A stretch of 40,983 nt of DNA from Bacillota bacterium. Its GTDB lineage: Bacteria; Bacillota; JADQBR01. Below, in pieces: positions 15,099-21,113 of the stretch (within the stretch, counting starts at the first letter, position 1; each line of letters starts with the position of its first letter). Location of the stretch: contig JADQBR010000118.1 in assembly GCA_016278515.1 (NCBI GenBank), forward strand, positions 1 through 40,983, given 5' to 3'. A model generated the notes under the pieces. That model was not told where the DNA came from. It did not search any database and saw only the letters and a list, made by a program, of their open reading frames with translations. The translations under genes and the position numbers were made by a program.

Positions 15099-17078
15099 AT
15101 GGCTGATATAGGTTATTTATCATTAATCTTAGCTTTTGCAATTAGCATTTATAGTGTAGTTGCTTTTATTGTGGCTGCTAAGACAGATAATGAACGGCTA
15201 AAGGCAAGTGCAAAAGGCGGGGTCGCCGCTGTGTGTTTGGCGACGACTGTGGCATCATCTATTCTTATTTACCTACTGATGACTAGCGATTTTTCTATTG
15301 AATATGTCTATAGTTATACAAGTAAGAACCTACCCGTCTTTTATAAGTTATCTGCTTTCTGGGCAGGAAATGCGGGCTCGTTACTCCTGTGGTCTTGGGT
15401 ATTGGCTATCTATACGGCGATAGTAACTTTCTCCAAGAAACATGAGCATGACGAAAAACTACCATATGTAAGCACTATCTTAACCTTTATGAACATATTC
15501 TTTTTACTTCTGATGGTCTTTCTTGATGCAAACCCATTTGAAAAAATACCCGGTGGTGTGATGCCGGCTGAGGGGGCGGGGCTTAACCCTATGCTTCAGA
15601 ACCCCGGAATGGTTTTTCATCCGGTAACTTTATACCTGGGATATGTAGGATTTGCGGTGCCATATGCGTTTGCAATGTCTGCACTGCTACTGAAAAAAGT
15701 TGACGATAGTTGGATTAAGGTCACTAGACGTTGGACGGTTGTGGCCTGGATGTTTTTAACCTTAGGAAACCTCTATGGCGCCCAGTGGGCCTATGTAGAA
15801 CTGGGTTGGGGTGGTTTCTGGGCTTGGGACCCAGTAGAAAACGCCTCCTTTATCCCTTGGCTGACTGGTACGGCTTTTCTACATTCAGTAATGATTCAAG
15901 AGCGTAAAGACATGTTGAAAATCTGGAATATGACGCTGATAATTATTACCTTCTTAACAACAATTTTTGGTACTTTTTTGGTGCGGAGCGGCGTGCTTCA
16001 GTCAGTTCACTCCTTTGCTACCAACCAAGCCTTTGGAGCAGCGTTCCTCATTTTCATGAGTATTGCAGCATTAGTTTCTTTTTATCTTTTAATTGATCGG
16101 ATTAATCTATTAAAGCAGGGTAATCAGTTTGAATCCTACTTGTCAAAAGAAAGCAGTTTCTTGATAAACAACCTGCTCTTATTGGGAGCGGCGTTTGCGA
16201 CCTTCTGGGGTACAATATTTCCGTTAGTGTCGGAGGCAATTAGAGGTGTCAAGGTTACCGTAAGTGTGCCTTTTTTCAATCAAGTGAATGGGCCTATTTT
16301 GCTGGCTACGATATTTGTAATGGGAGTTTGTCCGCTAATAGCATGGCAGAGGTCTACGTTAAAAAATCTTAGAAATAATTTTCTATGGCCGTTCTCAATT
16401 GCAACAGTTACAGGTATAGGGCTTTACTTCTATTTACCGGGCAAATCATTATACGGAGCGGTTGCCTTTGGCGTTGCAGCTTTTGTGATTCTGACTATCC
16501 TGCAAGAATTTTATCGCGGTACTGCCGTGCGTCATCGGATGACAGGAGAAGGATATATTACGGCGCTAGGGAAGCTGATGATTCGCAGCAGGCGTCGGTA
16601 TGGCGGTTACACAGTGCATCTAGGAATTGTATTAATCGTTATAGCGGTGATAGGCTCTTATGGTTATAAAACAGAAGTCACTAAACAGGTTGGTGTGGGA
16701 GAAAACATTAATGTAGGGAATTATACCTTGACATTTAACGGGCTGCAGGAAAAACCCGAAGGCGAAAACACGATTGTATTTGCTGAAATGCCTGTAACAA
16801 AGAATGGCAAGTCAATTGGAACAATAATACCTGAAAAGGTATTTTACGCAACTTGGGAGCAGCCGGGTACGGAAGTTGCTATTAAGGGCAGCCTGACAGA
16901 AGACCTTTATGTATTATTAGCCAGCTGGGAGCAAAATGGAAAAGTTGCTACGTTTAAAGTAAATGTTAACCCACTCATGAGTTGGATGTGGATTGGCGGT
17001 TACATTATGGTCTTAGGTACTATTTTTGCGGTTTGGCCTGGGAAGGGAAGTCAGTTAGGACCAAAATATACCCAGTAA
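15099..17078 (+). CDS. ccmF: CcmF cytochrome c haem lyase subunit
   Basis: A 659-residue polytopic membrane protein, close to the usual CcmF length of about 650. The tryptophan-rich haem-handling motif WGGFWAWDPVEN is at residues 237-248, flanked by conserved histidines ('NPGMVFHPVTLYLGYVGF', 'GTAFLHSVMIQE'). Near the C-terminus, 'GGYTVHLGIVLIVIAVIGS' precedes a soluble outer domain and a last helix. In System I, CcmF with CcmH ligates haem delivered by CcmE to the CxxCH motifs of apocytochromes c. The ATG at 15099 follows AAGGAGG. ccmH starts 11 bases after the stop. Confidence 0.95.
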   Translation: MADIGYLSLILAFAISIYSVVAFIVAAKTDNERLKASAKGGVAAVCLATTVASSILIYLLMTSDFSIEYVYSYTSKNLPVFYKLSAFWAGNAGSLLLWSWVLAIYTAIVTFSKKHEHDEKLPYVSTILTFMNIFFLLLMVFLDANPFEKIPGGVMPAEGAGLNPMLQNPGMVFHPVTLYLGYVGFAVPYAFAMSALLLKKVDDSWIKVTRRWTVVAWMFLTLGNLYGAQWAYVELGWGGFWAWDPVENASFIPWLTGTAFLHSVMIQERKDMLKIWNMTLIIITFLTTIFGTFLVRSGVLQSVHSFATNQAFGAAFLIFMSIAALVSFYLLIDRINLLKQGNQFESYLSKESSFLINNLLLLGAAFATFWGTIFPLVSEAIRGVKVTVSVPFFNQVNGPILLATIFVMGVCPLIAWQRSTLKNLRNNFLWPFSIATVTGIGLYFYLPGKSLYGAVAFGVAAFVILTILQEFYRGTAVRHRMTGEGYITALGKLMIRSRRRYGGYTVHLGIVLIVIAVIGSYGYKTEVTKQVGVGENINVGNYTLTFNGLQEKPEGENTIVFAEMPVTKNGKSIGTIIPEKVFYATWEQPGTEVAIKGSLTEDLYVLLASWEQNGKVATFKVNVNPLMSWMWIGGYIMVLGTIFAVWPGKGSQLGPKYTQ

Positions 17079-18034: not shown

Positions 18035-19027
18035 ATGAAATATCGCAAATTGTTAAGAATACTAATTACCATATTCTTGGTTGCAATGATGGTACAGCCT
18101 GCTTTTGCTGAGGAAAATGTAAATACAGGATCGGATAGTACCGTCAGTATAAAAGTCCGCCATCAATTAGTGACCCTAGCTCAAGATCAAAAGAGCCTTA
18201 GTGTGAAAGATACCTTGGTTGTGGCTAATAATGGTGAGGCAGCGGCAAATATTACTATTGAATTACCTGAAGGGTACCAGGACCTAGAAATATTGTCAGG
18301 ACCTGAAGGGGCTAACGAGCAAGAAGGTGCATTAGTCGTTTCGGGACTGGTACCAGGCGAAACTCAAATTGCATTAAGTTTTATAATGGAATCCTTTTCT
18401 GAAGAATCTCCACATTTTATTGTTTCTCAAAGCTTTAAGAATCCCATAGGGACATTTTTTGTGCTTGCGCCTGCACAGGGTTTACAGATAATAAGCGGGG
18501 ACCTAAAAGATGGCGGCGTACAACAGATGGGCAGTATGGAATACCAGATGCATGGAATGGAAGGTATTCAAGTTGGTTCTAAAGCAGAATATCGAGTGGT
18601 CGTGAGTTCTGGCGGAGCACCTGCAGCAGAAAGCAGTGAAGACAGCAATGCCGCAGGGTATCTATCTCAATCCAGTCCTGAATTTCATAGCGCGGGACAT
18701 ATTCGTTTTTGGAACCAGTCGCCTTTTTCCGGGATGAACCCGCATATATTCCTATTCTTAGTCATCGTTATACCCATTGGCCTAATAATATATGCATTAC
18801 TTAGGCGCAGTCAGCAATCTGAAGAAATGGCGGCCCAGGTAGATCAGGAAGAAGAACTCTTCCAAAAACTGCTTAAAAAACAGCAAATTCTTATGAATAA
18901 GATTAAAGACCTGGAGAAGCAGCATATGAGCGGTGACGTTGATGACAAAACATACAATGAACTGCGTGCGATATACAAACAGAAACTAGTTAATGTTAAG
19001 GCTAAGTTGAAGGATTTAACTGGTTAG
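18035..19027 (+). CDS. Second exported, membrane-anchored protein of the ccm operon
   Basis: A 330-residue protein with a signal peptide (1-25, ending 'PAFAEE'). An extracytoplasmic beta-sandwich region (about 30-195) shows a CARDB/carboxypeptidase-like pattern ('TLVVANNGEAAANITIELPEG', 'LVPGETQIALSFIM'). A linker, a transmembrane helix (about 236-256, 'HIFLFLVIVIPIGLIIYALL') and a cytoplasmic coiled coil end in 'MSGDVDDKTYNELRAIYKQKL'. I see no cysteine, so it is not a thiol oxidoreductase. The layout mirrors that of the protein at 13586 (signal, beta domain, helix, short C-terminal helical motif), which suggests they are paralogues or partners. It lies between the CcmI-like gene and ccmA. 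Function unknown. Confidence 0.8.
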   Translation: MKYRKLLRILITIFLVAMMVQPAFAEENVNTGSDSTVSIKVRHQLVTLAQDQKSLSVKDTLVVANNGEAAANITIELPEGYQDLEILSGPEGANEQEGALVVSGLVPGETQIALSFIMESFSEESPHFIVSQSFKNPIGTFFVLAPAQGLQIISGDLKDGGVQQMGSMEYQMHGMEGIQVGSKAEYRVVVSSGGAPAAESSEDSNAAGYLSQSSPEFHSAGHIRFWNQSPFSGMNPHIFLFLVIVIPIGLIIYALLRRSQQSEEMAAQVDQEEELFQKLLKKQQILMNKIKDLEKQHMSGDVDDKTYNELRAIYKQKLVNVKAKLKDLTG

Positions 19028-19039
19028 GAGGTTTTTTCC

Positions 19040-19741
19040 ATCATTCGCGCAGAAAATGTTGCCAAGACTATTGGTTCAAAAAACATATTACACGGGATAA
19101 ATTTGCATATTAAGCCAGGCGAATTTGTCAGTGTGCTTGGGCCCAATGGGGCAGGGAAGACTACATTGTTAAAGGTGCTCACCTTGCTGACGCCGCCGAG
19201 CGAAGGACAGGTTCACATTGCCGGGCGGAAAGTTTCTGAGGAGCAACTGGCATTACGCAAGAAAATGGGGGTTATTTCTCATAACACTTTTCTTTATGCT
19301 AATCTGACTGCTTATGAGAATCTATTGTTCTATGGGCGTATGTATGATGTGCCTAGATTAAAGGACCGGGTAAAAGAGGTTATTTCTGAGGTCGGTTTGC
19401 AATATAGTCTCAACGATCCGGTTCGAACCTTTTCTCGGGGCATGCAGCAACGGCTGGCGATTGCTAGGGCAATCGTTCATAATCCCGATATATTGTTTTT
19501 AGATGAACCATATACCGGCTTGGATCAGCATGCAATTAAGATTTTAAACCAGGTGCTTTTAAGCCTTACAAATCAGGATCGTACCATCTTTTTAATTACA
19601 CACAACTTTGAGCAGGGATTAAGCATGAGCGATCGGATTGTCATATTGGTCAAAGGAAAGATTGTCTGCGAGATGCCCGGTAAGGATCTCACCCTTGAAG
19701 ATCTTCAAAAGACTTATCTCAAATGTGTGGGGGAGAAATGA
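19040..19741 (+). CDS. ccmA: CcmA-type ABC transporter ATPase with apparent AUC start
   Basis: A 233-residue ABC ATPase. Walker A is 'GPNGAGKTT' (about 34-42), the signature is 'FSRGMQQRLAIARA', Walker B is 'ILFLDEPYTGLD' and the switch histidine is in 'LITHNFEQG'. With CcmB and CcmC it powers release of holo-CcmE. Protein-like sequence with the expected N-terminus (x-I-R-A-E-N-V-A-K) extends upstream to 19040. Between the preceding stop (19025) and 19103 there is no ATG, GTG or TTG in frame. TAGGAGG at 19025-19031 is ideally placed 8 bases before ATC at 19040, followed by ATT at 19043. I therefore annotate an ATC (or ATT) start. The TTG at 19103 would delete the first beta strand. Confidence 0.88.
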   Translation: MIRAENVAKTIGSKNILHGINLHIKPGEFVSVLGPNGAGKTTLLKVLTLLTPPSEGQVHIAGRKVSEEQLALRKKMGVISHNTFLYANLTAYENLLFYGRMYDVPRLKDRVKEVISEVGLQYSLNDPVRTFSRGMQQRLAIARAIVHNPDILFLDEPYTGLDQHAIKILNQVLLSLTNQDRTIFLITHNFEQGLSMSDRIVILVKGKIVCEMPGKDLTLEDLQKTYLKCVGEK

Positions 19742-20418
19742 TGCGGTTTTTAGCAAAAGTAGCAAACATAGTTTGGAAAGACCTGGTGGCTGAATTCAGA
19801 ACCAAAGAAATGATTAGTGCCATGATGATTTTCTCAGTACTGGTTATAGTGATGTTTGCATTCGCTTTTAAACCGGTTGGAGATACGGTTAAAGCCGTAT
19901 CTCCTGGAATAATTTGGGTGGCATTTACTTTCTCCGGGATTTTAGGCTTAAATAGATCCTTCGTTAATGAGAAACAGAATGAGACACTGACAGGCTTAAT
20001 GTTGACACCGGTCGACCGCACCGCTATTTATTTCGGTAAGGTAATTACTAATTTTATCATTATGGCTGTTACAGAAGCAATTTCATTGCCTCTATTTTTT
20101 ATTATGTTTGATTACGGTGTAGCAGGTTCAATTTTGCACCTAATACTGATAATATTTCTAGGTACTTTAGGATTTGTTTCCATAGGGACTTTTTTAGCGG
20201 CACTATCAGCTAACACCAGAGCCAGTGAGATTTTGCTTCCTATAATTCTTTTCCCGATACTTATTCCCTTAATGATAGGTGCTGTGCAGTCGACGGCCAT
20301 GATCTTTGATCAAAAGGCATTTGTTGAATTTGCGGGTTGGGTGAAATTACTGGCCGTTTATGACATAATATTTCTGGTAGTACCTTTTATTCTATTTGAT
20401 TATGTATTGGAGGTTTAG
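19741..20418 (+). CDS. ccmB: CcmB haem exporter permease subunit
   Basis: A 225-residue protein with six hydrophobic segments. The block 'LNRSFVNEKQNETLTGLMLTPVDRTAIYFGK' is characteristic of CcmB. It pairs with CcmA (whose stop codon overlaps this start) and with CcmC to form the ABC complex that releases haem-loaded CcmE. The sequence reads ATGATG at 19738-19743; the second ATG (19741) has the better spacing from GGGGGAG. ccmC follows 2 bases after the stop. Length is typical for the family. Confidence 0.9.
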   Translation: MRFLAKVANIVWKDLVAEFRTKEMISAMMIFSVLVIVMFAFAFKPVGDTVKAVSPGIIWVAFTFSGILGLNRSFVNEKQNETLTGLMLTPVDRTAIYFGKVITNFIIMAVTEAISLPLFFIMFDYGVAGSILHLILIIFLGTLGFVSIGTFLAALSANTRASEILLPIILFPILIPLMIGAVQSTAMIFDQKAFVEFAGWVKLLAVYDIIFLVVPFILFDYVLEV

Positions 20419-20420
20419 TA

Positions 20421-21113
20421 ATGCTAAAGCCCTCAAAGACCCAAACTGTATTGGGTTGGGTAACCTTTATTGTTACGCTGTTTGCCCTTTACATGACTTT
20501 TATTTATGCTCCTTTAGAAAAAGTAATGGGCGTCGTTCAGAAAATATTTTACTTCCACGTGGCCTCGGCCTGGAATGCTTTTTTTGCCTTTTTTATTGTT
20601 TTTGTGGCCAGTATTGTTTACCTGCGAACTAAAAATGAAAAATGGGATACCATTGCAAAAGTTTCAGCCGAAATAGGCGTGGTATTTACAACCATTGTCT
20701 TGGTGACAGGGCCAATTTGGGGCCATGCTGCGTGGGGCAGGTGGTGGACTTGGGAACCTCGTTTAACTACCACACTAATACTTTGGTTTATTTATTTAGC
20801 TTATGTGCTGGTTCGTGCTTCCAGCATTGAGGGTGAGAAAAAAGCTACTATGGCTGCGGTTTTCGGAATCATTGGTTTTATAGATGTGCCTATTGTTTTT
20901 TTCGCTATTCGATGGTGGGGATCCCTAGCACATCCCGAAGTGGTAACAGGGTCGGGCGGCGGATTAGACCCAAGAATGCTCCATGCTTTAATTGCCAGTG
21001 TGATTGCTTTTACCTTCATATATTTTTATTTATTAACCCAAGGCATTCTGATCGAACGGACTGAAGCTAGGGTTAAGCGAATAAAGAACCAATTAAGAGA
21101 AAGGAATAATTAG
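20421..21113 (+). CDS. ccmC: CcmC haem-handling protein
   Basis: A 230-residue protein with six membrane segments. The tryptophan-rich motif 'WGHAAWGRWWTWEPRLT' (residues 100-116) lies between conserved histidines ('FYFHVASAWNAFF' and 'LHALIASVIAF'). CcmC attaches haem to CcmE on the outer membrane face. It begins 2 bases after ccmB and is followed by the CcmD-like gene at 21134. Related CcsA/ResC proteins of System II share the WWD motif, but the length and the ccmAB context identify CcmC. Confidence 0.93.
   Translation: MLKPSKTQTVLGWVTFIVTLFALYMTFIYAPLEKVMGVVQKIFYFHVASAWNAFFAFFIVFVASIVYLRTKNEKWDTIAKVSAEIGVVFTTIVLVTGPIWGHAAWGRWWTWEPRLTTTLILWFIYLAYVLVRASSIEGEKKATMAAVFGIIGFIDVPIVFFAIRWWGSLAHPEVVTGSGGGLDPRMLHALIASVIAFTFIYFYLLTQGILIERTEARVKRIKNQLRERNN

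Follow-up and report, generated by a model that had tools for sequence, protein, structure and literature searches.

We found that ccmA in the 40,983-nucleotide Bacillota contig analyzed here (the window) carries AUC where its homologues begin and that this codon is AUC, AUA, or AUU (together, AUH) throughout a clade of related species. The clade-wide conservation of AUH at the start position of ccmA is confirmed by comparison of homologues, and initiation at the AUC at 19040 is the best-supported reading of the sequence. With a probability of roughly 0.87, we consider that ccmA is translated from this AUC and that its strong Shine-Dalgarno (SD) sequence, combined with a weak start codon, gives low, IF3-sensitive synthesis of CcmA that has been kept by selection. 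The window gene shows the features by which we recognized genes with a non-NTG start (NTG being ATG, GTG, or TTG), namely, no usable NTG codon, an AUH codon at the start of its homologues, a strong SD, and conservation. While the principle is already known from infC, pcnB, sigR, ccpN, and cvfC1, a search of an open-access literature library found no report of a ccmA with a non-canonical start.

Features of the ccm operon and of the ccmA start region in the window
Feature	Coordinates	Strand	Remarks
ccmF/nrfE-like heme lyase gene	15099..17078	+	Family match; operon context
ccmH/nrfF-like gene	from 17090		Operon member
Small CcmI-like ORF	from 17605		Our reading; no family match
Upstream gene for 330-aa putative membrane protein	18035..19027	+	Stop lies inside the ccmA SD
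SD, AGGAGG	19026..19031	+	Anti-SD duplex, -12.7 kcal/mol; overlaps the upstream TAG
8-nt spacer, TTTTTTCC	19032..19039	+	Between SD and ATC
Proposed ccmA initiation codon, AUC	19040..19042	+	In the alignment, ATC/ATA/ATT (16 species) or ATG/TTG/GTG (sister lineages)
ccmA, heme ABC exporter ATPase	19040..19741	+	233 aa plus stop; TIGR01189, PF00005, Walker A
ccmB	19738..20418	+	PF03379, TIGR01190; ATG start overlaps the ccmA stop
ccmC	20421..21113	+	Family match; ATG start; operon context

The 330-aa gene upstream of ccmA ends with a TAG at 19025-19027 that is in frame with ccmA in the window, where the sequence reads GGT TAG GAG GTT TTT TCC ATC ATT CGC GCA GAA. A first-pass annotation of this DNA had stated that no in-frame ATG, GTG, or TTG lies between this stop and 19103, and the sequence bears this out, as the earliest in-frame NTG of ccmA is the TTG at 19103 (codon 22), which has a weak predicted SD (-4.1 kcal/mol). 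The same annotation was right that a well-spaced SD precedes the ATC at 19040. It had left the choice between an AUC start and an AUU start at the ATT directly 3′ of it (19043); the AUC is favored, as it aligns with the ATG, TTG, or GTG of sister lineages at equal SD spacing, and the ATT is less likely. A stretch of ~25 codons without an NTG is not improbable taken alone; the pattern goes beyond chance because AUH is conserved at codon 1 across 16 species.

The reading frame from 19040 exceeds the curated NCBIfam cutoff for the CcmA equivalog TIGR01189 (134.3 versus 131.6 bits). This match starts at residue 4. The Walker A motif, GPNGAGKT, is found at residue 34. The gene sits in a ccm operon, with PF03379 scoring above its cutoff among the neighbors; TIGR01190, TIGR01191, and TIGR00353 also match neighboring genes, with scores below their curated cutoffs. 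The 330-aa putative membrane protein encoded within the operon occurs in several Bacillota families, and no family was found for it in Pfam or NCBIfam.

We searched related genomes for the CcmA protein and read the first codon from the aligned homologues. Sixteen species, which represent nine family-level Bacillota lineages (L048 and eight numbered families), had ATC, ATA, or ATT as codon 1, and none had ATG. The codon was ATC in the window, G001, G035/L006, G043/L007, and G107/L124; ATA in G002/L032, G120/L033, G083/L118, G112/L115, and G284/L041; and ATT in G076/L034, G111/L035, G004/L005, G027/L008, G195/L123, and L048. Sister lineages that belong to the same CcmA clade in the tree (Thermincola-like, f48, and others) have ATG, TTG, or GTG at this codon, and the SD lies about 8 to 9 nt from codon 1 in relatives of both the AUH and the canonical type. 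Given that canonical start codons occupy this position at a matching SD distance, codon 1 is the likely start of the gene. In 14 of the 16 AUH species, the stretch from the upstream in-frame stop to codon 1 is free of NTG; the two ambiguous cases are L124, where TTG occurs in frame three codons before codon 1, and L005, where ATG occurs in frame 16 codons before it. Downstream of codon 1, an in-frame NTG first appears at codon 43 in L115, 46 in L033, and 75 in L123, in each case past the start of Walker A at 34, so a canonical start in these species would destroy the ATPase.

A strong SD (-10.2 to -13.2 kcal/mol) precedes codon 1 in all 16 AUH species, mostly as TAGGAGG or TAGGGGG, whose TAG terminates the preceding gene. 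SD strength did not differ significantly between the AUH species and their canonical relatives (P = 0.15, Mann-Whitney test), and we therefore rejected the idea that it compensates for the weak start. L006 has lost the 330-aa gene, yet the last few codons of that gene and TAGGAGG persist just before the ATC, a remnant that suggests selection on the segment as a ribosome-binding site. A CcmI-like gene replaces the 330-aa gene in both L006 and L033, with the stop codon/SD segment kept. RNAalifold gave no pairs for a conserved RNA structure at the ccmA start region, and a GGG...CCC hairpin that can be spotted by eye is confined to some of the species.

Codons 1 to 21 look constrained at the protein level: 10 are identical, 6 synonymous, and 5 nonsynonymous between L002 and L032, and 11, 6, and 4, respectively, between L002 and L004. 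The third base of codon 1 has changed among A, C, and T at least five times within subclades of the tree and never to G. This turnover fits selection against AUG, although the statistics are weak alone (P of about 0.13 for no AUG after five counted changes and 0.04 with three more).

The gene for IF3 itself, infC, is the classical AUU-start gene and served as a positive control. We located it in 20 of 22 genomes. In the genome of the window (L152/L193, G000:C79), it reads GGAGGTGACACAAC ATT AGC AAG, and in the relatives, with the exception of L147, the start is mostly ATT and in a few cases ATC or ATA. These data indicate that the lineage uses AUH initiation elsewhere.

The first-pass annotation had cautioned that an ATG misread as ATC would give the same picture and had proposed a comparison with related genomes. 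One base change does restore ATG, and the window comes from a 167-contig draft assembly, but the comparison found AUH at codon 1 in independent genomes, including ATC or ATA in the single-contig genomes G001 and G112; the probability of a base-calling or assembly error at this codon is thus negligible. Translation from a downstream canonical codon, for which the in-frame TTG at 19103 is available in the window, is highly improbable considering its weak predicted SD, the 21 conserved residues that would be lost, and the position of the first NTG behind Walker A in three of the relatives. We also consider it very unlikely that readthrough of the TAG, or frameshifting, fuses CcmA to the upstream protein and leaves the conserved Ile codon internal. 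In favor of such a fusion, ccmA shares its frame with the upstream TAG both in the window and in several relatives, and an internal Ile codon would likewise be ATH and never ATG. However, six species have the upstream stop in a different frame from ccmA (at -16 in L032, L005, L041, and L008; at -22 in L123; and at -28 in L006), and lineages differ in whether the gene before ccmA encodes the 330-aa protein, a CcmI-like protein, or CcmF. Since the frame of the stop varies within the clade and the upstream gene differs, readthrough or frameshifting fails as a general explanation; the conserved SD spacing to codon 1 and the NTG found there in sister lineages also speak against it.

A more serious alternative accepts AUC as the initiator and regards it as drift, tolerated thanks to a strong SD and to coupling with the upstream gene and serving no regulatory role. 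The SD and its overlap with the stop could offset a weak start, canonical relatives do without AUH, and SD strength is alike in both groups. Against this, AUH persists over nine family-level lineages with the third base turning over and no AUG appearing. Given that switches from AUG to AUU starts are otherwise as rare as about 1 in 61,358 among closely related bacterial genomes (PMC5622118), such deep persistence in ccmA is notable, and we judge drift to be possible but rather unlikely.

Under the preferred reading of a selected AUC start, the AGGAGG that overlaps the TAG of the 330-aa gene would position a 30S subunit or a just-terminated ribosome, and the initiator tRNA would then face a codon whose third base does not match. 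IF3 discriminates against start codons that lack a 3′ G (PMC4611024), and its discrimination against AUC, together with the strong SD, would result in low, IF3-sensitive synthesis of the CcmA ATPase. Selection would keep this arrangement, with AUC, AUA, and AUU interchanging across the clade and AUG absent from these lineages. From the sequence comparisons, we infer that AUC acts as the initiator in the cell; by analogy with known systems, CcmA synthesis is probably low and set by IF3. Termination-reinitiation at the overlapping stop may contribute. It is also plausible that the ATPase is throttled relative to CcmB, as the first-pass annotation suggested, with a precedent in the AUA and AUU starts of S. 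aureus (PMC13009471).

Several of these known systems resemble ccmA in part. Like ccmA, infC has an IF3-discriminated AUH start, a strong SD, and deep conservation, and its AUU start is present in this genome too; infC, however, is autoregulated by its own product, whereas ccmA encodes a heme-export ATPase without direct IF3 feedback. Streptomyces sigR likewise has a non-canonical start and a strong SD and lies in an operon. Its GTC start is repressed by IF3, which holds SigR below its partner RsrA (PMC5472188); IF3 repression was demonstrated there, whereas for ccmA we infer it. In Escherichia coli infC fidelity mutants, expression from non-canonical starts is reported to increase 3- to 15-fold (PMC5472188). 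The two also differ in that sigR encodes a sigma factor with GTC or GTT starts across Streptomyces, while ccmA uses AUC, AUA, or AUU across many Bacillota families. The Gram-positive staphylococci offer conserved AUH starts in ccpN (AUA) and cvfC1 (AUU), other genes in another lineage, with an extended SD; expression from AUA and AUU starts of this kind in S. aureus was measured at about 10 to 30% of that from AUG (PMC13009471). While cvfC1 is the first gene of its operon, the SD of ccmA overlaps the stop of the gene before it. In E. coli pcnB, a different gene, an inefficient AUU start limits expression (Binns and Masters 2002, as cited in PMC13009471).

A broader proposal is that these anaerobes possess a small IF3-tuned set of genes, comprising infC, ccmA, a CPBP-family protease gene, and possibly the glutamine synthetase gene, through which cytochrome c maturation is coupled to IF3. 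We offer this proposal tentatively and think it doubtful at present; if it is true, the AUH starts would be a selected regulatory element linking cytochrome c maturation to the IF3 level or to initiation stringency. To our knowledge, very few bacterial genes have retained a start codon of the IF3-discriminated kind across great phylogenetic distances. ccmA would add a clear case outside translation itself, with sister lineages that use AUG or UUG as a natural comparison, and would suggest that the CcmA dose must be kept low compared with that of its membrane partners. Gene finders limited to ATG, GTG, and TTG could be expected to miss or truncate such genes.

To look for further candidates, we scanned 1.82 of the 4.27 Mb of this genome (1,513 ORFs with a minimum length of 120 codons) for a strong SD followed by a non-NTG codon where no NTG in the vicinity was usable. 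The scan returned 13 AUH positions at about ten loci, ccmA and infC among them. A CPBP/Rce1-like protease gene (L176:7442-8104, minus strand, on contig C18 of G000) has AUH after a strong SD and no usable NTG, and AUH is also found in its homologues from two other genera of the family, G002 (L234, TAGGAGGGAAGCAACC ATT AAA) and G001 (L235, GGAGGGATCTTTT ATT AAA), making it a lead for a third conserved AUH-start gene. The glutamine synthetase gene (L257:14936-16261, plus strand, contig C31 of G000) has ATT ATT at the expected start, as does its homologue in G001 (L283), so the pattern spans two genera; its SD spacing in G000 is not ideal, and we treat it likewise as a lead for a candidate AUH start. 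A conserved AUH start was not supported for a MeaB-like gene (L254:3517), as its G001 homologue has ATG. A strong SD followed by AUH, with no nearby NTG, was also seen at a gene for a PgsB-like Mur ligase (L228:13386-14564, plus strand), for which the seven genomes searched gave no match; at a gene for a 354-aa protein with no Pfam family (L176:4512-5576, minus strand), whose G001 homologue has ATG codons near its start; and at an ORF for a 120-aa protein (L260:9805-10167, minus strand).
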